Shown: piece after piece, positions 18,075-64,000 of the stretch | Position numbering within the stretch: the first letter of the stretch is position 1 | How the letters are laid out: each line of letters starts with the position of its first letter | DNA from: Streptomonospora mangrovi | Lineage (GTDB): Bacteria > Actinomycetota > Actinomycetes > Streptosporangiales > Streptosporangiaceae | Reading direction: 5' to 3' | Assembly: GCF_027604915.1 (NCBI RefSeq) | Contig: NZ_JAJAQC010000017.1 | Location: 1 to 64,000 of the forward strand | Length of the DNA stretch: 64,000 nucleotides | Translations under genes and position numbers: made by a program | Notes under the pieces: generated by a model | What the model was told of the DNA's origin: nothing | The model's input: the letters and a program-made list of their open reading frames with translations, nothing else | Databases searched by the model: none

Positions 18075-20126
18075 ATGGCCGGTACACCCTCCTCCAAAAG
18101 CCCAGGTGCACGCGATGCGGGCGGCCCACACGCGCCGTCCCGGTCCGGTCCGCGCCTCGCCCCCGTCGCCGTGGCGGCGCTGGGCGTCCTCGTGATCGCC
18201 GCCTGCGCCGTCCTGCTCTCCTACAACGGCATCTACCAGATCGCCGTGCAGGGCAACATCGACCGCCGCTACGCCCACCTCTACCCCGGCGCGTTCACCC
18301 TGCTGATGCTGATGGCGTTCTGGGGCAGCTACGTGCTGCGCACCGCCCGGCGCTCCCGGCGGCTGTGGGTCGACGCGCTCATCCTGCTGCTGATCGCCCT
18401 GGCCGCGGGCGCCAGCGCGCTGCGCGCCTACGGCATGGTGCTGCTGCCCGACGTCGCCGTGGTGGTGGCCGCCGTCGCGCCGTGGGTGGCGCTGCTCGCG
18501 GCCTTCCGCATCTTCCTCTCGGTCGTCATGCACGTGCGCGGCGAGGTCCCCGGCACCCGGCCCCGGTCCGCCCGCCGCCGCGGCGGCCCCGACCCCGAGG
18601 ACACCGAGCCGCCGGCCGAACCGGTCACCGCCCTCACCGAGCCCATCGCCCTGCCCGAGGAGGCCGCGCCCGCGCGGCGCCCCCGCCCGGCCGACGAGGC
18701 GCCCCGGCTGCTGCGCGACGACGACCCCACCCACCGCCTGGACTACCCCGGCCCGCCCGGCGACCCCGCGCCCGACCTCCCCGACCCCCGGTACGAGGGC
18801 CGGCCCGTGGGGGTCGACACCGGCGCCGCCGGCGGGCGCGAGGAGCTGTTCGACCGCGAGGGCGCCGACGACCACGGGCTGGCCGGGGTCGCCGCCGCGG
18901 CCCAGCCCGCGCCCCCGGCGGCCGGGCGCCTCCCCGAGGAGCGCGCGGCCCGCCCCGAGCCCGGCCCCGCCGGCACCGCTCCCCCGGCCGACCGCGCCGC
19001 GGCCGAGGACGCCGCCGACACGGCCCCGCTGTGGCCCGAGGCGCCCGAGCGCGCCCGCCCCGACTCCCCGCCGGCCGACGGCGCCGCCGCCCCTCCGGCC
19101 GACGGCGCCGAGCCCGCCGCCGCCTCCGGGGCCGTGCGGACCCACCCGCTGGCCCTGCGCCACGCGCGGCGCACCGAGGAGGAGCACGCGGACCGCCCGG
19201 ACGTCCCGGACCGCCCGGACGTCCCGGACCGGCCGTACCGCGACGAGGACGAGGACCCCGGGGACGCGGCGGCCGCCCAGGACAGCCCCGACGACACCGG
19301 TGCCGCTCCGGTCGGCGCCGGAACCGGCCCCGCCGCCTTCGCCGCGAGCGGCGCGGCGGCACCCGCGCGCGGGGGCGACGGCGCCGACGACTCCGCCCAC
19401 CCCGACGACGCCGACGACGTCTACGCGGCCTGGGGCGCGGTGCCGCGCACCCGCGCCGCCGACGACGACCGCGACCCGCCCGAGCCGGCGCGGCCCGGAC
19501 CTCCCGGCCCCCGCGACGGCCGTGCCGACGACACCGGCACCGCCGAGGACGGCGGCGAGGCCCGCGCGGGTGCGGCCGGCGGGCTGCCCAAGCGCACGCC
19601 CACCGGTGAGAACCCCATCAAGCGGGCGGCCGAGGCGCCGCCGACCGCTCCCGAGGCCCGCCGCGACGGCCGCGCGGACCGCGCCGAGGACCCCGGCGCC
19701 GCCGAGGGCGGTATCGACGGCACCACCGGCGCCGGCGGCCCCGCCGACGCCCTCGGCGAGGACGGGTTCGTGGACGACCTGCCGCCGGGTGATCCGACCA
19801 ATGACGAGGGCGAGCCGCTGCCGGCCGCCGCCGAGGCCGCCCCCGGAGAGCCCGAGCCCGGACCCGCACCCGCGCCGCCCTCCGACGACGAGGAGCCCGG
19901 GGCCGAGGAGCCCGGGGCCGAGGAGCCCGAGCGGGCCGAGGCCGCCGAGCCCGGACCGCCGGCACCCCCGGAGGGCCCGGCGCACCCGGCGGCGCCGCCC
20001 ATCGAGAAGCGCCCGATGGTCCTCAAGCCCCGGCGCTCGCCCCGGCGGCAGGGGACCTCGCCGTTCCCGCCGGAGCCGCCCTCCAACCGGGTGCGCAGCC
20101 AGCCCACACCCCCCGACGAGGACTGA
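18075..20126 (+). CDS. DUF2637-like membrane protein with long acidic tail
   Basis: The protein has 683 residues. Residues about 28-155 hold four membrane helices (LAPVAVAALGVLVIAACAVL, YPGAFTLLMLMAFWGSYVL, VDALILLLIALAAGASALRA, VAVVVAAVAPWVALLAAFRI), the layout of the DUF2637/SpdA-like family. About 165-683 is an intrinsically disordered Asp/Glu/Ala/Pro-rich tail with short tandem repeats (RPDVPDRPDVPD near 376; three copies of EEPGAEEP near 600) and a basic end. In the family the helices are known from plasmid-spread proteins and from chromosomal genes; function unclear. The ATG at 18075 follows TACCCT by 10 bp, so it is likely near-leaderless. Confidence 0.6.
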   Translation: MAGTPSSKSPGARDAGGPHAPSRSGPRLAPVAVAALGVLVIAACAVLLSYNGIYQIAVQGNIDRRYAHLYPGAFTLLMLMAFWGSYVLRTARRSRRLWVDALILLLIALAAGASALRAYGMVLLPDVAVVVAAVAPWVALLAAFRIFLSVVMHVRGEVPGTRPRSARRRGGPDPEDTEPPAEPVTALTEPIALPEEAAPARRPRPADEAPRLLRDDDPTHRLDYPGPPGDPAPDLPDPRYEGRPVGVDTGAAGGREELFDREGADDHGLAGVAAAAQPAPPAAGRLPEERAARPEPGPAGTAPPADRAAAEDAADTAPLWPEAPERARPDSPPADGAAAPPADGAEPAAASGAVRTHPLALRHARRTEEEHADRPDVPDRPDVPDRPYRDEDEDPGDAAAAQDSPDDTGAAPVGAGTGPAAFAASGAAAPARGGDGADDSAHPDDADDVYAAWGAVPRTRAADDDRDPPEPARPGPPGPRDGRADDTGTAEDGGEARAGAAGGLPKRTPTGENPIKRAAEAPPTAPEARRDGRADRAEDPGAAEGGIDGTTGAGGPADALGEDGFVDDLPPGDPTNDEGEPLPAAAEAAPGEPEPGPAPAPPSDDEEPGAEEPGAEEPERAEAAEPGPPAPPEGPAHPAAPPIEKRPMVLKPRRSPRRQGTSPFPPEPPSNRVRSQPTPPDED

Positions 20127-56445: not shown

Positions 56446-56794
56446 GGTGTGCTCCCTCGCTGCCGTGCTCGTGCTGCTTTCACAGGGGTAGACGCGCGGG
56501 CGCTCCGAAACTCATCGCGCGCGCCGGACCTTATCTCCCACGGCCGGGCGGGGCGGGCCAGAGTCACACCGTGGCCGGATCCCGCCACCGCGTGGCCGGG
56601 GCCGGCTGGACCCGCTGGGCGTCCTGGACCGGCTCGCCGGACGGGCCGAGGCGCAACGCATCGAGGCCCGCGAGGGCAGGTAGCCGCCGTGAGGCGATGA
56701 CCGCTGGGTTTTCCACAGGCGCGCGGGCGAAGCGGACGCGCGCCTCAAGATCCGTTTAAGGTTCCCTTACCGTGATTTGAGGGGGCGGGGAACC
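56446..56794. other. boundary region before mobC; candidate oriT
   Basis: The 349 bp hold no complete gene. A short frame at about 56620-56684 ending LGVLDRLAGRAEAQRIEA before a TAG may be a gene remnant. Near the right end the sequence becomes AT-rich: TAAGGTTCCCTTA at 56757-56769 is a 5-bp inverted repeat with TTC loop, 25 bp before mobC. It resembles nic-region hairpins and is a candidate transfer origin. No integrase or att repeat is seen. Confidence 0.4.
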
Positions 56795-57220
56795 ATGGCA
56801 CAACGCAGGCGCGGCAACCGGCAGATCGGTGTCCGGCGCGACAAGAACGTCAAGCTCAGCCTGAGCGAGGACGAACACGCCCTGCTGGCCAAGGCCGCCC
56901 TCGCCAAGGACATGACCCTCAGCTCCTACTGCGCCTACGCCGCCCTGGCCGTCGCCCGCGACGAGGTCGACCCCACCCCCGACGTCCGCGAGACCATGGT
57001 CGCCCTCAACGACCAGATCACCCGGCTGTGCGACGCCGGTGTCCGGCTCGGAGGGCTCGCCACCGCCGATGTGACCGACGCCGCCGCCGGTTCCGGCGGC
57101 GGTGCGGTGGAAGGCGCGGACGGCGCGCCCGCTCCCGGGCTCCTGCTGCGCCGCATCGCCCGGCTCGTGGACGAACTCGAGGACACCGCCTACGAGCTGA
57201 AGCGGAGCGTGCGGCAGTGA
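56795..57220 (+). CDS. mobC: MobC-like mobilisation accessory protein
   Basis: The 141-residue protein has a ribbon-helix-helix-like N-terminus (VRRDKNVKLSLSEDEHALLAKAALAKDMTLSSYC) at about 13-50 and a helical C-terminus. This matches plasmid MobC proteins that bind oriT beside the relaxase and help open the DNA. The region at about 90-115 is Ala/Gly-rich. GGGGGCGGGG precedes the ATG. The stop overlaps the relaxase GTG (GTGA), typical of mobC-mobA translational coupling. Confidence 0.85.
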   Translation: MAQRRRGNRQIGVRRDKNVKLSLSEDEHALLAKAALAKDMTLSSYCAYAALAVARDEVDPTPDVRETMVALNDQITRLCDAGVRLGGLATADVTDAAAGSGGGAVEGADGAPAPGLLLRRIARLVDELEDTAYELKRSVRQ

Positions 57221-58524
57221 TCGCCAAAGTCATGCGCGGCAGCGACACCCACGGCCTGCTCCGCTACCTCTACGGCCCCGGCCGCGCCAACGAGCACATC
57301 GACCCCCACCTCGTCGGCGCCTGGCGCCCCCTCGGCGTCCCCGACCCCGGCCGCTCCCCCGACGCCGCCCTCGCCACCCTCGCCCGCCGCCTCGACCAGT
57401 TCGTCTCCCCCGGCAGCCGCGCCCGCCACGTCTGGCACTGCGCCATCCGCGTCGCCCACGGCGACCGCCCCCTCACCGACCCCGAATGGCACACCGTCGC
57501 CCGGCGCATCGCCGCCGCGGGCGGCGTCGCCCCCCACGGCGACCCCCGCGGCTGCCGCTGGGTCGCCGTCCGCCACGACGGCGCCGAAAGCCACCACATC
57601 CACCTCGTCGCCACCCTCAAACGCCAGGACGACACCCGCCCCGACATCCACAACGACGCCCTGCGGCTCCGCGACGAGTGCCGCGCCATCGAACACCACC
57701 TCGGCCTGCGCGCCACCGGCCCCTCCAACGGCACCTCCGACCGCCTCCCCAAACGCGGCGAGGTCGAGAAGGCCCTGCGGCGCGGCCGCACCGAACCCGC
57801 CCGCGTCCTCCTCGCGCGCGAGGTCCGCACCGCCGCCGTCACCGCACGCGACGAGGACGAGTTCTTTTCCCTCCTCGAAGGCGAGGGCGTGCTCCTGCAC
57901 CGGCGCACCGACGGCGCCGAACTCCTCGGCTACGCCGTGGCCCTGCCCGACGACCGCAACCCCACCGGCGAACCCGTCTGGCTCAGCGGCTCCACCCTCG
58001 CCCCCGAACTCTCCCTGCCCCGGCTGCGCCGCCGCTTCGCCGCCGCCGCACCCCCCGAACCCGGCGTCGGCGCCGCCCGCGCCTGGGCGCGGCTGCGCCG
58101 CTGCCTGGACGAAGCCCACCAGCGCACCCCCGGCGACACCATGGGCCGCCGCGCCGAAACCGCCTCCGCCCTCAGCGACGCCTTCACCGCCATCGCCGCC
58201 GCCGCACCCCCGCCCATGCGCCCCGCCCTGCGCGCCGCCGCCGACACCTGGCAGCAGGCCGGCCGCCTGCCCTGCCCCACCCAGCAGCACCCCCAGGCCG
58301 CCCGCCTGCGCGACGCCGCCCGCACCCTCGTCCGCGCCGCCGGCACCCCCGGCACCGAGGACGTGCGGGCGGTCCTCGCCCTCCTCGACACCCTCGCCGC
58401 CGACCTCGCCGAGTGGTACACCGCCCAGCGGTGGGTCCCTCAGCGCCACCGCGCCGACCTCACCCGCACCCATCTCGCCGGAGTCGACGTCGAGGAGCCC
58501 TGGGCTGAAGGCACGGGTCCTTAG
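57217..58524 (+). CDS. relaxase / mobilisation nuclease (VirD2/MobA type)
   Basis: The 435-residue DNA relaxase nicks oriT and leads strand transfer. The N-terminus has IAKVMRGSDTHGLLRYLYGPG, with candidate catalytic tyrosines at 17 and 19. The HUH-type metal site is WHCAIRVAHGD near 73 and HDGAESHHIHLVATL at about 120-134. After residue 250 is an Ala/Arg/Pro-rich helical region. The family is the actinobacterial Relaxase PF03432 group. It ends 50 bp before the convergent hypothetical gene. Confidence 0.88.
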   Translation: MIAKVMRGSDTHGLLRYLYGPGRANEHIDPHLVGAWRPLGVPDPGRSPDAALATLARRLDQFVSPGSRARHVWHCAIRVAHGDRPLTDPEWHTVARRIAAAGGVAPHGDPRGCRWVAVRHDGAESHHIHLVATLKRQDDTRPDIHNDALRLRDECRAIEHHLGLRATGPSNGTSDRLPKRGEVEKALRRGRTEPARVLLAREVRTAAVTARDEDEFFSLLEGEGVLLHRRTDGAELLGYAVALPDDRNPTGEPVWLSGSTLAPELSLPRLRRRFAAAAPPEPGVGAARAWARLRRCLDEAHQRTPGDTMGRRAETASALSDAFTAIAAAAPPPMRPALRAAADTWQQAGRLPCPTQQHPQAARLRDAARTLVRAAGTPGTEDVRAVLALLDTLAADLAEWYTAQRWVPQRHRADLTRTHLAGVDVEEPWAEGTGP

Positions 58525-58573: not shown

Positions 58574-59053
58574 CTACTCCCGCTGCCACGGCAGGGGCAC
58601 CCGGCGCTTGTCCGAACCACGGCCCTGGCCCGGCCGCGAGTTCCACATCAGCAGCAGGTCCCGCACGTAGTAGCGCGCCCGCGGGTACCACCGGCGGCCG
58701 TCCACCGTGTCCGGCAGCGAGTCCGGGCGGTCGTCCTTGATCTGGGTCACGCTCTTGCCGTCCACCCCGATCAGCGCCGCGAAACCGCCCAGCGTCACCT
58801 CGCGGTCCAGGTCCTCGGGCGCCACCTCCACCGGATCCGGACGCCGCGGCCGGAACCGCTCCAGCTTCGCCGGGTCGTACAGGTTGCTGCCGCCCCCGCC
58901 CCCCTTCTCCGTGGCCCCCTTCCGGCGGACCTCCGGCTCGGGGAAGTCGGGGTAGTAGCGCGGCATCACGTGCACCGCATAGGCGTGGCTGTAGCCGTTG
59001 CGCTCCGCCCACTCGCGCAGCGTCACCAGCCCCCGCTCGTCCTCCGCGGCCAT
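58574..59053 (-). CDS. putative DNA-binding protein of the mobilisation module
   Basis: The 159-residue protein begins ERGLVTLREWAERNGYSHAY, an excisionase/MerR-like start. A second segment LGGFAALIGVDGKSVTQIKDDR looks like a helix-turn-helix, followed by GRRWYPRARYYVRDLLLMW and a basic tail. Two HTH-like parts suggest an accessory DNA-binding or terminase-like protein. Its start overlaps the MobF stop by 31 bp, so the two are co-translated; it may help MobF at its oriT. Confidence 0.65.
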   Translation of the reverse strand: MAAEDERGLVTLREWAERNGYSHAYAVHVMPRYYPDFPEPEVRRKGATEKGGGGGSNLYDPAKLERFRPRRPDPVEVAPEDLDREVTLGGFAALIGVDGKSVTQIKDDRPDSLPDTVDGRRWYPRARYYVRDLLLMWNSRPGQGRGSDKRRVPLPWQRE

Positions 59054-62000
59054 GCCCCCTCCTTCGCAGCCCCCCGCGGCGCACCGCGCCAGGCGCCGCC
59101 CGCCCGGCCCCGCGCCGCGCGCTCCACCGCCGTCTTCAGCGACGCCCGCCGCGGCGGCACCAGCTCGTCACTCACCATCGTGTCGTCCTGGTCCGTCAGC
59201 GTACGGGCGTAGCCGTCGATCAGCCGCCGCACCAGCTCCCCGTCGTTGCGCACCCCCCGCACGTCCACCGACTCCAGCCCCTGCGCCGCCAGGTACAGGT
59301 CGGCCCGCCCCCGCGCCCGGCTCATCGCCGGATACAGCGAGTGCGCCTCGGCGCCGATCCCGTACACGTGCGCCCGCTCGCAGGTCAGCCCCTGCGCGGC
59401 CGCGATCGTCATCGCGTACCCGTGGCTCAGGTCCCCCCGCGCGATCGCCTCCGGCGACACCCACGCGCTGTGCGTCTCCCCCTCGCGGCGCCACTCCACC
59501 CGCACCCCGCGCCGACCGTCGACCTCGGCCACCACGCCCCGGAAGCCGTTCAGCACGTCCGGCCCCTCGCCCCGCCGCGACCGGTAGTCGTTGCGCCGCA
59601 CCCGGACGGTGTCGCCCGAGGCCAGCGCCAGCCGACCGCCGCCGCGCAGCGCGAACGCCACCTCGTCGTCCGCCAGATGGCCGCCCGCCCACGCCAGCGC
59701 CCGCATCCGCAGGTTCAACTCGTCCACGTCGCTGTTGCGCGCCGCCAGCACCAGCAGGTCGCCCACCGCCTGGTGCGGGTCCGACAGCTCCTGCCGGTCC
59801 TTCCACCAGCCCTGCGCCACCAGGTCCAGCGCGTCGTGCGCCCGCTCCGCCGCGTGCACCCGGCCCGCGTTGCCCCACACGTGCAGCGCGCTCGCCCGGC
59901 CGCCCTCCAGCCACGCCGCCAGCGCCTCCCGGTCCACCGCGTCGCGCTGCCTGCGGTTCTCCGACAGCGTCTCGCCCTCGACGATCCCGTGGACCGCCTT
60001 GAACCCGCCGCCCACACCGACCGCGCGCAACTGCGCCGGGTCGCCGATCCCCACGATCTTCGTGCCGCTGGCGTCCGCCGCCTTCACCAGCGCGGCCATC
60101 GAGCGGTCGTCCACCATGGCGGCCTCGTCGACCACCAGCACGTCGACCCCCGCCAGGCCCTCACCCGACTCGACCCGCCGCAGCCACGACGCCACCGTGC
60201 GCGACGCGATCCCCGACTCCGCCGCCAGGTTCGCCGCCGCCACCGCCGCCGTCGCCGCGCCCTCCACGCGCAGCCCCGCCGCCGACCACCCCGCCAGCGC
60301 GGCACTCATCAGCGTCGTCTTGCCCGACCCCGCCACGCCCCGGACCATGTCCAGGCCGTGCCCCGCGCACATCAGCCGCTCGGCCGTGCGCCGCTGCTCC
60401 GCCGACAGGCGGAAACCGCGCTCCGCCTCGAACCGGCGCAGCGCCTGCGCTGCGGCCGCCGCCGGGACCACCGCCGCGCCCTCGCCCAGTCGGCGCTCCG
60501 CGGCCGAGACGATCGCCTGCTCGGCCTCCACGATGTCGGCCGAGGTCCACCGGTCGGCGTTGGACAAATGCCGCGGTCCCCCGGACGGCAACCGGACCGC
60601 GTGCCCCGTCGACAGCACCGCCTCGGTCAGCACCTCCAGGTGGGACGCGCTCACCACCCCGCCCGGACACGCCGCCGCCACCGCCGCCATGATCTGCGGG
60701 CGGCTCACCGCTTTGCGCTGCGCCGTGACACCCGTCTCCGGATCCCACACGATCGCCGCCAGCGCGTCGACGTCGGGCGGCGGCTGCCGGGCCGCTGTCC
60801 CCCGGCTCAGCGCGCCGTCCAGCAGCGTCTCGACGTTGAACCCCGCCGTCTCGGCCACCCGCCGCCACCACCGGCGGGCGTGCCCCTGGCGCACCGACGA
60901 CTTCGACTGCGCCAACTCGCGCGCGGCCGCCCGCGCCTGCGCCGCCGAGGCGTCCCGGCCCACGTGGTCGGCGATCTGCCGCGACCGGGAGCTGAACGTG
61001 TCGCGGACGTCGCGGTCGAATCCCGCGATCTCCCACTCGCCCGTGCGCTCGTCGCGGACCCACACCACGCCGAAGCGGCGGCTCAGCCGCTCCCGCATCC
61101 GCGCCTTGGCCAGCTCGCCCGCCACCGCGACGTGGCGGTGCAGGTCCCGGCCGCCCGCGCCCAGCGCCCGCCACTTGCCGTCCTCGCCCAGGACCATGTT
61201 CGCGATCATGATGTGGGCGTGCAGATGGGGGTCGCCCATCCGGCCGTCGACCGGCCGCGCCGAGCGGTGCAGCGTGATCGATGCGATGAGCCCGGAGGTC
61301 GCCAGCCGGGCCGCGCTCTGGCCGTCGCCGTGGTGCCCCGCGACGGCGTAGCCCGCCCACTCTTCGAGGGAGTCGACCGTCTCGCGCACGCAGTCGAGGT
61401 AGATCTCCTCGATCTCGGCCGCCGTGCGGTCCTCGACCAGACCGTAGAGCACCGACATCGACTTGGGCATGTTCAGCACCATGTCGAAGCCGCGGTTGCC
61501 CACCCGGACCCGGGATTCGGCGTGCTCGCGGGCCGTCGCCAACTCCTCGGCGCCCCACAGCATCGCGGGGTCCACCCCGGCCTGCTCGGCGATCACCTCC
61601 AGGTCGCGGACGGCCGCGTGGTGCGCCTCGCCGTCGCGCAGCAGGCCCCGCTCCAGGCGGGCGAACCGCTCGGCCGCGCTGGCGGAGGTGAACAGGTCGG
61701 CCGCGGGCATGTGCGCGGCGTCGGCGATCGCGTAGACGGCGTCCACGAGCGGGCGCGCCGCCAGCTTCGCCCGGGGGTCGACGGCCTCCTTGGGCGCGAC
61801 GAGCACCTCGCCGGTGACGGGGTGGCACCCGGCCATGACGAGGCGCATGGCCTCCAGGTCGGCCTCGCCCGCGAACTCGCTGCCCGGCGCCTGCCCGAAC
61901 TCGCGCCATCCGCTGCCCACCCGCTGGAGGGGGCGGTCGGCGTCCTTGATCCGGTACTCGACCTGGAGGTCGTCGGCGTCGCCGTGGCTGTGGGCGTGCG

Positions 62001-62082
62001 CGTGGGCGTCGCAGCCGCACTGGCCGGTGAGGCGGTACTCGACCTGGGTGGGGTCCGGGCCGAGGGTGGTGACCCATGCCAA
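59023..62082 (-). CDS. MobF family relaxase-helicase (TraI/TrwC-like)
   Basis: The 1019-residue protein has an N-terminal relaxase of about 480 residues with the three-His metal motif in GDPHLHAHIMIANMV (His near 286-290), then an SF1 (RecD-like/AAA_30) helicase. Walker A is GVAGSGKTT near 582, Walker B VLVVDEAAMVDD near 645, GIGDPAQLRAVG follows, and late motifs include HGYAMTIAAAQGLT and AMSRARGRADLYLA. The N-terminus has VEYRL and VEYRI around a His/Asp-rich loop (HAHAHSHGDADD). TTG 62082 is chosen because GGAG lies 6 bp upstream and AWVTTLGPDPTQVEYRL is where family sequence begins; ATG 62166 or 62154 would add unrelated residues. It nicks and unwinds DNA for conjugative transfer. Confidence 0.92.
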   Translation of the reverse strand: MAWVTTLGPDPTQVEYRLTGQCGCDAHAHAHSHGDADDLQVEYRIKDADRPLQRVGSGWREFGQAPGSEFAGEADLEAMRLVMAGCHPVTGEVLVAPKEAVDPRAKLAARPLVDAVYAIADAAHMPAADLFTSASAAERFARLERGLLRDGEAHHAAVRDLEVIAEQAGVDPAMLWGAEELATAREHAESRVRVGNRGFDMVLNMPKSMSVLYGLVEDRTAAEIEEIYLDCVRETVDSLEEWAGYAVAGHHGDGQSAARLATSGLIASITLHRSARPVDGRMGDPHLHAHIMIANMVLGEDGKWRALGAGGRDLHRHVAVAGELAKARMRERLSRRFGVVWVRDERTGEWEIAGFDRDVRDTFSSRSRQIADHVGRDASAAQARAAARELAQSKSSVRQGHARRWWRRVAETAGFNVETLLDGALSRGTAARQPPPDVDALAAIVWDPETGVTAQRKAVSRPQIMAAVAAACPGGVVSASHLEVLTEAVLSTGHAVRLPSGGPRHLSNADRWTSADIVEAEQAIVSAAERRLGEGAAVVPAAAAAQALRRFEAERGFRLSAEQRRTAERLMCAGHGLDMVRGVAGSGKTTLMSAALAGWSAAGLRVEGAATAAVAAANLAAESGIASRTVASWLRRVESGEGLAGVDVLVVDEAAMVDDRSMAALVKAADASGTKIVGIGDPAQLRAVGVGGGFKAVHGIVEGETLSENRRQRDAVDREALAAWLEGGRASALHVWGNAGRVHAAERAHDALDLVAQGWWKDRQELSDPHQAVGDLLVLAARNSDVDELNLRMRALAWAGGHLADDEVAFALRGGGRLALASGDTVRVRRNDYRSRRGEGPDVLNGFRGVVAEVDGRRGVRVEWRREGETHSAWVSPEAIARGDLSHGYAMTIAAAQGLTCERAHVYGIGAEAHSLYPAMSRARGRADLYLAAQGLESVDVRGVRNDGELVRRLIDGYARTLTDQDDTMVSDELVPPRRASLKTAVERAARGRAGGAWRGAPRGAAKEGAWPRRTSGGW

Positions 62083-62219
62083 TGGTTTCTCCGCTGGCGG
62101 ACCGGGGGTGGGAGGCGGACAGGAGAGGGTGAGTGGTGATGGATTTTGACGCATCCGCGTGGACATGTCCAGTACGACACGCCCGGATGCTGAGATGCCG
62201 GATACCTGCGCGCTTCCCG

Positions 62220-62256
62220 CTTCTTCGGGCGGGGGCGCGGGTCCGGCGGGGGTCAC
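62220..62256. repeat. inverted repeat 1, left arm (IR1-L)
   Basis: This 37-bp sequence, starting CTTCTTCGGGCGGGGGC, is the perfect reverse complement of 62870-62906. Three more bases pair on the inner side. It adjoins the palindrome at 62256-62283. Confidence 0.9.
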
Positions 62257-62283
62257 CCACCGGGGGCCGCGGCCCCCGGTGGG
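62256..62283 (-). terminator. hairpin after 47-residue ORF
   Basis: A 28-bp perfect palindrome (first half CCCACCGGGGGCCG) lies 8 bp past the stop of the ORF at 62291. It has the form of a GC-rich factor-independent terminator. Confidence 0.65.
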
Positions 62284-62290
62284 TGGGGGC

Positions 62291-62434
62291 TCACCTGCCG
62301 CGCGCCTCCCTCTCGGCCTCGGCGGTGGACGCCTTGGCGTCGGCCACGTCCTTCTCGCTGGACTCGCGGGCCTGCTGGACCTGGCGGGCGGTGTCCTCCT
62401 GGATCTTCTTCACGAAGTCCTCGTCCTTGCCCAT
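62291..62434 (-). CDS. 47-residue charged coiled-coil protein
   Basis: This tiny protein (MGKDEDFVKKIQEDTARQVQ...) is almost all Glu/Lys/Ala/Arg and predicted as one long helix. AGAGGAGGTGA 5 bp before the ATG is a near-perfect Shine-Dalgarno, the main reason to call it. It lies upstream of mobF on the same strand and is followed by a palindromic terminator. No family recognised. Confidence 0.6.
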   Translation of the reverse strand: MGKDEDFVKKIQEDTARQVQQARESSEKDVADAKASTAEAEREARGR

Positions 62435-62486
62435 CTCTGTCACCTCCTCTCGGGGCTCGGTCGGGGCGGGTTCCCTTCGGCTCGCC

Positions 62487-62573
62487 CTAGTCGGGCGTGG
62501 GGCCGGGGGGCCGCTGCGGCTCCGAGTTCGGGCCGCCCGGCCGGGGCAGGGGTGCGGGCTTCTCCTTGGGCAT
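62487..62573 (-). CDS. 28-residue proline-rich peptide
   Basis: MPKEKPAPLPRPGGPNSEPQ... is a basic proline-rich peptide of 28 residues with a strong GGGAGGTGA ribosome site. The leader in front of it is a near-copy of that before the ORF at 63048. It begins 3 bp after the stop of a 15-codon leaderless frame and may be coupled to it. Function unknown. Confidence 0.5.
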   Translation of the reverse strand: MPKEKPAPLPRPGGPNSEPQRPPGPTPD

Positions 62574-62576
62574 CGT

Positions 62577-62624
62577 TCACCTCCCTTGGCGCTCTGTGGA
62601 GTTGTCAAGGAACTGGCCGTTCAC
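62577..62624 (-). CDS. 15-residue possible leaderless leader peptide
   Basis: GTG 62624 lies 5 bp after TAATAT (minus strand 62630-62635), so it would be translated from the 5' end of the mRNA: VNGQFLDNSTERQGR, then TGA. The stop lies within the ribosome site of the next ORF, a layout typical of coupling or attenuation peptides. Detection rests on position only. Confidence 0.35.
   Translation of the reverse strand: MNGQFLDNSTERQGR
62578..62610 (-). repeat. duplicated leader, copy 1
   Basis: Minus strand reads CCTTGACAACTCCACAGAGC, a short variable part, then AAGGGAGGTG. The same sequence recurs at 63116-63149 with two to three changes. In both cases it precedes a tiny ORF by a few bases. 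Confidence 0.85.
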
Positions 62625-62642
62625 TGTAGATATTACCCTTTC
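62622..62642 (-). promoter_or_regulatory. duplicated -10/leaderless start, copy 1
   Basis: A 21-bp sequence containing TAATAT followed by CTACA and GTG (minus strand) is identical at 63245-63265. TAATAT is the best -10 hexamer in this region and the GTG follows by 5 bp. Confidence 0.6.
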
Positions 62643-62663
62643 CAGTGGCGGCCAAACCTCCGG

Positions 62664-62810
62664 TTACGGGTGGCTGCCGGTGGACTGGTCGCCGCCCTCG
62701 TCGCCGCTCGGCTCCTCGGCCGGGGGCATCTCCTCCCTGATCTCCTGGTTGGCCTTCGCCGCCCAGGCGGTGTAGTCCTTGCCCTCCTGGTACGCCTTCG
62801 AGTCGCCCAT
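62664..62810 (-). CDS. 48-residue acidic protein
   Basis: MGDSKAYQEGKDYTAWAAKA... is an acidic small protein with a Gly/Ser/Asp-rich tail. AGAGAGGAAG before the ATG is a usable ribosome site. The upstream leader contains the GGATC-GAA-GATCC hairpin and the inverted repeat arm IR1-R. No family recognised. Confidence 0.55.
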   Translation of the reverse strand: MGDSKAYQEGKDYTAWAAKANQEIREEMPPAEEPSGDEGGDQSTGSHP

Positions 62811-62845
62811 GATGCGCTTCCTCTCTGTTCCTTGTGTCGTGGGAT

Positions 62846-62906
62846 GGATCGAAGATCCCTGCGCGCTGGGTGACCCCCGCCGGACCCGCGCCCCCGCCCG
62901 AAGAAG
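62846..62906. repeat. inverted repeat 1, right arm with hairpin
   Basis: 62870-62906 is the perfect 37-bp reverse complement of 62220-62256. Just left is GGATC-GAA-GATCC (62846-62858) and CCTGCGCGCTGGGTG. This whole block of about 50 bp is repeated directly at 63285-63334. Confidence 0.9.
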
Positions 62907-62975
62907 TGAAGGGCGAGCAAGGCGACAACGGCGACACGCCCGAGATCGCAAGGCGGCGATACCTGCGCTCTTCCC

Positions 62976-63015
62976 TTTCGGGGGCGCGGGGCGCGGGTCC
63001 GGCGGGGGCCACCCA
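62976..63015. repeat. inverted repeat 2, left arm (IR2-L)
   Basis: A 40-bp sequence beginning TTTCGGGGGCGCGGGG is the perfect reverse complement of 63306-63345. It is related to IR1-L (shared GCGCGGGTCCGGCGGGGG) and is preceded, like IR1-L, by GATACCTGCGC. Confidence 0.9.
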
Positions 63016-63039
63016 CCGGGGGCCGCAACCCCCGGCGGG
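63012..63039 (-). terminator. hairpin after 20-residue ORF
   Basis: CCCACCGGGGG...CCCCCGGCGGG forms a stem with one G-A mismatch around CCGCAA. It stands 8 bp after the ORF stop at 63048, the same position as the palindrome in the first cassette. Confidence 0.6.
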
Positions 63040-63047
63040 CGGGGGGC

Positions 63048-63110
63048 TCACTTGCCGCCCTTCGGCTTGCCGAGGTTCTTGGTGGGGGTGTCCTCCTCGT
63101 CGCTGCGCAT
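63048..63110 (-). CDS. 20-residue peptide
   Basis: MRSDEEDTPTKNLGKPKGGK is a 20-residue charged peptide. AAGGGAGGTGACGAC before the ATG is a strong ribosome site, and the leader is the second copy of that at 62578-62610. The small size makes the call tentative. Confidence 0.45.
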   Translation of the reverse strand: MRSDEEDTPTKNLGKPKGGK

Positions 63111-63115
63111 GTCGT

Positions 63116-63149
63116 CACCTCCCTTCGTCGCTCTGTGGAGTTGTCAAGG
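63116..63149 (-). repeat. duplicated leader, copy 2
   Basis: Near-copy of 62578-62610, upstream of the 20-residue ORF. Confidence 0.85.
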
Positions 63150-63166
63150 ATCACTGCGGGCTCCGG

Positions 63167-63247
63167 CTACTTCGGCTGGGGCAGACCGCAGTTTGCGCAG
63201 TCCGCTCCTCCCGGCGGGTAGGGGGTTCCACAGTTGGGGCAATCCAC
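63167..63247 (-). CDS. 26-residue zinc-ribbon peptide, leaderless start
   Basis: GTG 63247 opens a 26-residue frame with two CxxC pairs, DCPNCGTPYPPGGADCANCG, the knuckles of a zinc ribbon. TAATAT (63253-63258, minus strand) ends 5 bp before the GTG, so translation would be leaderless. The Cys pattern makes real coding likely. A free-standing zinc ribbon of this size could be a DNA- or RNA-binding peptide. Confidence 0.55.
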   Translation of the reverse strand: MDCPNCGTPYPPGGADCANCGLPQPK

Positions 63248-63265
63248 TGTAGATATTACCCTTTC
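63245..63265 (-). promoter_or_regulatory. duplicated -10/leaderless start, copy 2
   Basis: Identical over 21 bp to 62622-62642. It serves the zinc-ribbon peptide. Confidence 0.6.
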
Positions 63266-63679
63266 TGTGCGGTTTGAAACCTGGGGATCGAAGATCCCTG
63301 CGCGCTGGGTGGCCCCCGCCGGACCCGCGCCCCGCGCCCCCGAAAAGGGGTGTTGACGGGGGGAAATGCGGACATCAGCCTCAAACACACACCCTTCAAT
63401 ATAACTTGCTCTCCTTTCTCTCTTTTTTCTTCTTTCGCCTTCGGGGTGGGGCGGGACAGGTGGAGCCGGAGGGTGGGGCGGGACAGGTGGAGCCGGGCGG
63501 TGGAACTGTTCGGGTGGCGGTGGGCGAGGGAGGGGGTGCGGGTGCGGGGGAACGAGAAGCGGGGGGGGGGGGGGGGGGGCGGGGGCGGGGGGGGGGGGGG
63601 GGGGGGGGGCGAGGCGCGCGGGGGGGGGGGGGGCCGGCCCCCCGGCCGCTTGGGGGGGGGGGCGGTTGTGGGAGGAGGG
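63248..63679. other. gene-free stretch with repeats and G-homopolymers
   Basis: It contains IR2-R, a pyrimidine-rich tract (63400-63440), two 27-bp tandem repeats of GGGTGGGGCGGGACAGGTGG type (63444-63497), and 63560-63660, which is nearly all G with single C or A interruptions. The last part has doubtful base accuracy. No gene is supported. Confidence 0.6.
63285..63345. repeat. inverted repeat 2, right arm with hairpin
   Basis: 63306-63345 is the perfect 40-bp reverse complement of 62976-63015. The hairpin GGATC-GAA-GATCC (63285-63297) lies beside it, as in IR1. Confidence 0.9.
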
Positions 63680-64000
63680 TCAGGGGGTTTGCGGTTTCTT
63701 GCGGGCGACGAGGGCGATCGTGGTGGTGATCGCGGCGAAGAAGAGGAACAGGGCGAGCCAGACCATGCCCTGGGTGACGTTCATTTCGGCGCCCTCCACG
63801 CCGCGGGTGCGGCCGCCGTCGCGGCCGGTGATCGCGACCGCGAGGACGGTGAGGATCGCCGCGGCCGTGCCGATGCGGGCCGTCCAGCCCAGGGCGCGGA
63901 CCGTCCGGCCGCGGGTGTGCAGGCGTTCGTTGCGGCGGGCCGGGGCGAGGAGGCGGGTCAGGAGCAGGGCGGCCACCGGGAGCTGGAGCAGCCAGACGGT
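63680..64000 (-). CDS. membrane protein, 5' end beyond the window
   Basis: The frame is open to position 64000 (TVWLLQLPVAALLL...), so only the C-terminal 106 residues are seen. An internal GTG at 63976 is a possible but unneeded start. Two further membrane helices are visible: IGTAAAILTVLAVAI and MVWLALFLFFAAITTTIALV. It ends RKKPQTP. Conjugation-linked membrane proteins look like this, but no family is recognised. Confidence 0.5.
   Translation of the reverse strand, partial: TVWLLQLPVAALLLTRLLAPARRNERLHTRGRTVRALGWTARIGTAAAILTVLAVAITGRDGGRTRGVEGAEMNVTQGMVWLALFLFFAAITTTIALVARKKPQTP

Follow-up and report, generated by a model that had tools for sequence, protein, structure and literature searches.

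Two cassettes of tiny open reading frames (ORFs) lie upstream of the relaxase-helicase gene mobF in Streptomonospora mangrovi, on the minus strand of positions 62200-63411 of a 64-kb stretch of its DNA (the window), and both read toward mobF. They are almost certainly examples of a conserved module. The cassettes are framed by direct repeats resembling the origin of transfer (oriT) of MobF plasmids, nearly all carry an antitermination box of the type found in ribosomal RNA (rrn) leaders, and a long-arm lineage has an inverted repeat (IR) of 27-41 bp with one arm beside each site. The favoured reading, which is given about even chances, is a modular leading-region/oriT block of a MobF conjugative element, composed of tandem cassettes with oriT-like frames and rrn-type antitermination toward mobF. 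The nicking, the antitermination and the role of the arms are inferred from sequence. An earlier note on this DNA had listed ORFs of 48, 15, 28 and 47 residues in cassette 1 and of 26 and 20 in cassette 2, all on the minus strand toward mobF, as found here. Its term ‘cassettes’ is borne out, since the plan recurs beside mobF with different cargo. The oriT-like sites and the rrn box go beyond that note and explain more.

Thirteen cassettes were counted: W1 and W2 in the window, Ga and Gb upstream of mobF on the chromosome and P on a plasmid of another genome of the host's genus (G107), NF, NC, S1-S3, NP, YM and NE. Searches at the DNA level located cassettes with this plan ahead of mobF on Nocardiopsis flavescens plasmid unnamed2 (one, NF) and N. 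changdeensis plasmid unnamed3 (one, NC; the Nocardiopsis sp. MT53 record matches the latter equally and was not counted separately). Three stand in tandem upstream of mobF on Streptomonospora nanhaiensis p12A09 (S1-S3), and looser forms precede mobF in N. potens (NP), Nocardiopsaceae bacterium YIM 96095 (YM) and N. eucommiae (NE). Six of 297 genomes of the family matched at E ≤ 1e-6; the host's own genome, G107, G204 and G290 hold cassettes, and G174 and G203 gave one short match each, with no site, box or long IR around the match in the G203 stretch. A search of the host's own genome with the region returned no further copy and only two weak matches among the 40 of 334 candidates that were scored; no site, box or IR surrounds the arm-like one, on contig C5. 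A phage collection gave no match to the region. The earlier note had allowed for an assembly artefact, which is unlikely as other assemblies, among them plasmid records labelled complete, show the same plan.

The frame consists of two sites in the same direction. In all 13 units a site-1 core, [GA]CGC[AT]GGGATC, opens the cassette in the direction of reading and a second core closes it. The closing core is [GA]CGC[AT]GGTATC in 12 units, and NE has a second GCGCAGGGATC instead. No site core was found on the opposite strand in any of the 13. The 5-bp hairpin of site 1 is perfect in 12/13 (S3 has one mismatch). Site 2, near mobF, is mostly the core with one hairpin arm, and full hairpins are present there in YM and NE. 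Both window cassettes have the exact left-outer GATACCTGCGC and right GGATC-GAA-GATCC that the earlier note had read. The pattern GCGCAGGGATCTNCGATCC, which misses the p12A09, NP and YM forms, identified eight sites, spread over 4 of 345 genomes from the order and each inside a cassette. A looser pattern, CGCAGGGATC-N2-4-GATCC, gave 39 rows in the 297 genomes, 28 of them outside known cassettes, and was replaced by a tighter one. Across the entire 35.2-kb p12A09 record, six of the seven occurrences of GCGCAGGKATC are cassette boundaries. GGATC-TTC-GATCC was not read as a repressor operator, since its half-sites are spaced variably (2, 3 or 4 nt) and other stem sequences are also found.

A related element precedes mobF in Streptomyces, Salinispora, Actinoplanes, Nonomuraea, Glycomyces, Kitasatospora and others. 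This class-wide element consists of a flank resembling GTACCAAGG or GGACAAAGG and then a hairpin, the stem of which varies (GTATC, GTATGGC, GGGGTTCCCC, GTACGTCC, GTCTC) with pairing kept. A motif was devised on 24 loci (Nocardiopsaceae excluded except L094) and then applied to 10 later-fetched plasmid loci, hand-picked among the unfetched matches with two potato-associated strains left out. With perfect stems required, the motif was present in 13/24 first-set and 3/10 later loci, against 0.29 and 0.18 expected from shuffles; a relaxed test gave 16/24 and 8/10, against 0.85 and 0.48. By the relaxed test, the relatives have, beside the relaxase gene, a hairpin with a conserved one-sided flank as expected of a MobF oriT. 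The window has the full hairpin at both copies of site 1 and the core alone at both copies of site 2, with a flank unlike the class-wide one, and intermediates exist. The nic site of R388 has 5-nt arms and a 4-nt loop, at nucleotides 17-25 before the cut, and a distal arm tolerant of change (PMC4176350). On the plus strand each window site has the hairpin and then CTGCGC, an order of parts as in R388. From this resemblance the sites are regarded, with somewhat better than even confidence, as putative nic sites of the relaxase.

The Streptomyces plasmids pFP1, pFP11, pSLUN2, pSTS1 and others (L092, L093, L095, L097, L098, L100) share a hairpin element with a conserved flank upstream of mobF; it is unannotated in their tables and is a ready oriT candidate. 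Conjugation of pFP1 and pFP11 has reportedly been the subject of published work. On the G107 plasmid contig (L131), a third, complete oriT-like hairpin, GAAGTGCGAAGGTATCTGCGATAC, adjoins the cassette at 552-575 on the opposite strand.

Within the frame lies the rrn-type box. The sequence TTGAGAACTCAACAG, which we take to be what is called the actinobacterial antitermination box, occurs exactly five times in the host's own genome. Four copies are about 120 nt upstream of 16S rRNA (located with Rfam), and the remaining copy, which lies at a contig end, shares the leader sequence. Five further sites have two mismatches each, two of them being those of the window cassettes, and the reversed control gave 0. 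In all 12 mobF-linked cassettes a box with 0-3 mismatches is present on the strand toward mobF, each at a level reached by at most one of 300 shuffles, so that a match to the own-genome rrn leader on the transcribed strand is found in 12/13 cassettes. A strong hairpin precedes the box in several of them, as judged by eye, and a promoter-like GGGTA...TAYAGTG element is present in 10/13 units. The reading of the TTGACAACTCCACAG motif as a TTGACA promoter was dropped after the rrn leader match. A search of 61500-64000 with Rfam gave no match up to E = 5. The rRNA box is described as recruiting Nus factors against Rho termination (PMC4807359). On the sequence match, putative rrn-type antitermination is very likely. 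The suggestion of a regulatory region for the conjugative operon, made in the earlier note, holds in that this box is carried.

The arms of the IRs are perfect in 9/13 cassettes (27, 33, 33, 34, 40, 40, 40, 41 and 41 bp), lie 286-770 bp apart across the cassettes and represent seven different sequences. The result of note is that nine cassettes have perfect runs of 27-41 bp despite differing sequence. In cassette 1 the inverted repeat is exact as previously described, with a length of 40 bp (62220-62259/62867-62906) rather than 37 bp (62220-62256/62870-62906); the 40 bp given for cassette 2 (62976-63015/63306-63345) was correct. Compared with W1, the arms have one substitution in Gb, W2, NF and S2 and five in S1, and gap events number 0 in Gb, three in W2, NF and S2, and two in S1. 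The arm of P diverges further. This comparison covers perfect runs only, where any change in one arm is necessarily mirrored in the other. In 735,523 fetched bases, each of the 15 perfect IRs of 27 bp or longer with spacers of 100-900 bp is a pair of cassette arms, the set being loci of at least 10 kb, the window and L032 excluded, with some loci overlapping or repeated. A scan of the window for perfect IRs of at least 18 bp with 60-1600 bp between the repeats found five: the two cassette pairs and three inter-cassette cross-matches, two of them arm to arm and one between the hairpins adjoining the arms.

Minimum-energy RNA folds place 43-52 long-range pairs in the outer-arm region of seven long-arm cassettes, and folds with DNA parameters place 37-53 in six, the DNA value of W2 being unusable. 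NP has 17 and 23 such pairs in its folds and YM none. Wobble pairs are present just beyond the perfect runs in some cases. The arms are likely to work by pairing, and their perfection raises the question of what selects exact pairing over hundreds of bases. A terminator-antiterminator switch between the arm and a local hairpin was weakened as a candidate, as both form in one RNA fold of W1. Wider spacing in the fetched loci adds one unrelated 35-bp perfect IR upstream of mobF in Streptomyces atratus (L042, 8376-8410/9860-9894, spacer 1449).

The cassettes hold one to four tiny ORFs, often including a zinc ribbon. Between the 26-aa zinc ribbon of the window and its G107 homologue, there are 2, 1 and 10 differences at first, second and third codon positions over 26 codons, a pattern which suggests constraint at the protein level. 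The other six ORF pairs compared had no codon-position bias or were too alike to judge. The ORF MRSDEEDTPTKNLGKPKGGK is the last of W2, and G107 has a near-copy in the final position of Gb; cargo has thus apparently passed between cassettes. Of five tiny window ORFs submitted to Pfam, four gave nothing and the fifth (26 aa) gave only sub-threshold matches of zinc-ribbon type. The best E value in PADLOC for three tiny ORFs was 0.85. One curated cut-off, that of Zn_Ribbon_Prim (25.3 bits vs 23), is passed by the 41-aa zinc protein from the plasmid cassette of G107, though by no single stretch of it; sub-threshold matches of this protein include Anti-TRAP.

The favoured reading implies the following course of events. 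The order of hairpin then CTGCGC on the plus strand matches that of a MobF nic site; a nick there would launch this strand into transfer in the direction leading away from mobF, with the cassettes at the leading end and mobF entering last. With a distance of 9 nt from the hairpin, the cut of cassette 1 site 1 would be expected at the start of its arm. The transferred strand would template the tiny genes. RNA polymerase at the box would acquire the host rRNA antitermination complex and cross structured, poorly translated DNA, and read-through would give expression of the tiny genes and, for the window, of mobF as well. Pairing of the arms would take place in either single-stranded DNA or RNA. 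Such putative leading-region expression is given an even chance.

TrwC is reported to recombine oriT with a copy cut down to the proximal arm and nic (PMC3264647). A full and a minimal oriT-like site in direct repeat resemble this substrate, and by analogy the relaxase could delete or exchange a cassette, which is considered rather unlikely. A more elaborate version, a relaxase-run cassette system, is doubtful: tiny establishment genes between a full and a minimal oriT would be excised, circularised or exchanged in transfer, the arms would snap together and position the ends of the transferred strand, and rRNA antitermination would give immediate expression.

Several points weigh against the leading-region/oriT reading. 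Site 2 is mostly hairpin-less, and NE has another hairpin there. The window flank GCGCAGG is unlike GTACCAAGG and GGACAAAGG, so homology to the class-wide element depends on intermediates (GAGTACGCAGG in L049 and L090). The strict motif test succeeded in only 3/10 later loci, the relaxation (one mismatch permitted in longer stems) was made after the strict result, and the motif had been designed on the first set. The reversed-pattern control for GCGCAGGGATCTNCGATCC and for the looser pattern contains CTAG, which is rare in bacterial DNA, and its zero means little. N. trehalosi (L035) and Marinitenerispora (L038), whose mobF is 63-67% identical, lack a recognisable site near that gene, and Thermobifida halotolerans (L090) has a single one. 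The Ga arms are imperfect (local alignment score 30, with one gap and three mismatches that are not wobble pairs), those of NP are 9 bp, and YM and NE have none. In G107 a 14.7-kb plasmid contig carries a cassette and no MobF, the sole MobF match of that genome at E ≤ 1e-20 being on a chromosome contig; the box of this cassette (P) has five mismatches and is not recognisable above chance. Lastly, the outer arm matches its partner although it lies outside the site-to-site interval, a point against free exchange of cassettes from site to site.

The strongest rival, which is possible but clearly less probable, is a structured RNA leader of the mobF operon resembling pre-rRNA. The arms would pair as a leader-trailer helix that RNase III cuts, the box would recruit the Nus complex, and the GCGCAGG-KATC hairpins would be RNA regulatory sites (e.g. 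for MobF autoregulation) and not nick sites. A leader-trailer helix and antitermination are both reported to take part in 16S biogenesis (PMC10250234). The rrn box sits on the transcribed strand, the RNA folds of the seven long-arm cassettes have their 43-52 outer-arm pairs, the arms stay paired while their sequence changes with wobble pairs extending the helix beyond the perfect run, and the motif occupies the 5′ region of mobF in many genera. However, a hairpin with a conserved one-sided flank fits a nic site without extra assumptions, the arm defects of Ga are not wobble pairs, YM and NE keep sites and box though armless, and the G107 plasmid contig lacks a MobF gene.

Plain bidirectional terminators or insulators that flank short ORFs of no importance are improbable. 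GC-rich hairpins do overlap the mobF-proximal arms, and the part of the earlier note's proposal of terminator pairs that stands is that those at 62254-62285 and 63009-63042 may contribute; perfect pairing of 27-41 bp across 286-770 bp is left unexplained by it. The site and box are moreover specific and conserved, and the zinc-ribbon ORF is under coding constraint. The readings in which the arms bound a transposon or an invertible switch fit poorly. Perfect terminal-type IRs, varied cargo and several tandem copies would suit small non-autonomous transposable elements (MITE-like), a very improbable reading: the conserved GCGCAGG-KATC lies outside the mobF-proximal arm in all 10 long-arm cassettes (as a GCGCAGGTATC site directly beyond it), neighbouring cassettes differ in arm sequence, and the scored own-genome candidates held no further copy, the two weak matches lacking such sites or IRs where examined. 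The arm-bounded mobile elements proposed in the earlier note are poorly supported, conserved sequence passing the mobF-proximal arm and both sites having the same direction in 13/13 cassettes; no precise empty site was seen, though no systematic search was made. A DNA inversion switch flipping the cargo, suggested by IRs identical within each cassette, is scarcely credible given a single orientation of the sites in 13/13 and of the rrn box in the 12/12 mobF-linked cassettes.

The features of the locus are collected in Table 1. Convergent with mobF is a second, MobA/VirD2-like relaxase (56777-58524, plus strand) with a sub-threshold NikA-like ORF, which makes two relaxases in the region. Just past the array, 63561-63662 contains four poly-G tracts of 11-23 G each; they have no counterpart in the G107 stretch upstream of its cassettes, so a sequencing or assembly error is possible there. 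A weak 74% DNA match to the cassette region (E 9.6e-4) at 19888-19967 of the window has a repetitive, codon-like look.

Table 1. Features of the mobF-cassette locus (window coordinates)
Feature	Position	Strand	Remarks
mobF relaxase-helicase	59023..62139	-	TrwC and AAA_30 domains; start codon uncertain, near given right end
Cassette 1 site 2	62201..62211	-	GCGCAGGTATC, minimal oriT-like site: core and one hairpin arm
Cassette 1 arm, mobF-proximal	62220..62259	+	perfect 40-bp reverse complement of 62867-62906
GC-rich palindrome, terminator-like	62254..62285	-	overlaps inner end of cassette 1 mobF-proximal arm
47-aa ORF MGKDEDF...	62291..62434	-	
28-aa ORF MPKEKPA...	62487..62573	-	
15-aa ORF VNGQFLDNSTERQGR	62577..62624	-	overlaps rrn box; may be no true gene
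rrn-leader-type antitermination box, cassette 1	62594..62608	-	TTGACAACTCCACAG; 2 mismatches to own-genome box upstream of 16S rRNA
Promoter-like P2 with GTG start, cassette 1	62622..62638	-	GGGTAATATCTACAGTG; putative promoter
48-aa ORF MGDSKAY...	62664..62810	-	similar ORF in G107 cassette Gb
Cassette 1 site 1	62846..62864	-	GCGCAGG and GGATC-TTC-GATCC hairpin, full oriT-like site
Cassette 1 arm, mobF-distal	62867..62906	+	partner of 62220-62259
Cassette 2 site 2	62958..62968	-	GCGCAGGTATC
Cassette 2 arm, mobF-proximal	62976..63015	+	perfect 40-bp reverse complement of 63306-63345
GC-rich hairpin, terminator-like	63009..63042	-	overlaps inner end of cassette 2 mobF-proximal arm
20-aa ORF MRSDEEDTPTKNLGKPKGGK	63048..63110	-	cassette 2
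rrn-leader-type antitermination box, cassette 2	63133..63147	-	2 mismatches to own-genome 16S-leader box
26-aa zinc-ribbon ORF VDCPNCGTPYPPGGADCANCGLPQPK	63167..63247	-	sub-threshold Zn_Ribbon_1, 21.6 bits, cut-off 25
Promoter-like P2, cassette 2	63245..63261	-	putative promoter
Cassette 2 site 1	63285..63303	-	GCGCAGG and GGATC-TTC-GATCC hairpin
Cassette 2 arm, mobF-distal	63306..63345	+	partner of 62976-63015
Conserved element GAGCAAGTTATA, upstream of array	63400..63411	-	GCAAGTTATA found in 9/13 cassette units
Candidate nic-site sequence for MobF relaxase		+	GGATCGAAGATCCCTGCGCGC

If the leading-region/oriT reading is true, it provides a definite candidate for the oriT of a group of actinobacterial MobF plasmids, a conjugative element that borrows a host ribosomal antitermination signal, and unstudied tiny proteins, several of them zinc ribbons, located where other plasmids keep establishment and anti-defence genes. 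Keyword searches of open-licence papers found no description of these cassettes, of their combination of features or of an oriT for these MobF plasmids. The plasmid pWTY27 has an FtsK-type tra with clt, which is a different system (PMC3583192).

The cassettes share features with several known systems. Leading regions of the F/ColIb-P9 type hold early-expressed establishment and anti-defence genes (PMC11541004); the likeness is that of small genes beside a presumed oriT, templated by the presumed transferred strand, and the difference is that the cassette genes are tiny and in repeated units. Gram-positive conjugation operons can open with antitermination systems such as conAn of pLS20-type operons (PMC8955417). 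Antitermination at the head of the conjugation genes is common to both, but conAn consists of a plasmid protein and RNA, whereas the cassettes have a copy of the host rrn box. The rRNA leader element itself (boxB-boxA-boxC) has a near-identical box on the transcribed strand, and by eye a preceding hairpin is shared by several cassettes; here, however, the box lies in mobile-element cassettes with tiny ORFs and not upstream of rRNA.

Integron gene cassettes are small genes in tandem units with recombination sites that involve folded DNA. The present cassettes similarly consist of small tandem genes framed by folded-DNA sites of recombination type, but the frame is a relaxase-type site and any exchange is putative. 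The MobF oriT of R388 (TrwC type; PMC4176350, PMC3264647) has a short hairpin followed by a conserved single-stranded part of about 8-9 nt and adjoins a TrwC-domain relaxase gene, as in the cassettes, and its minimal form likewise keeps the proximal arm only. The cassettes differ in having two to six direct-repeat copies of other sequence, with a nic role read from that sequence, which frame tiny genes.

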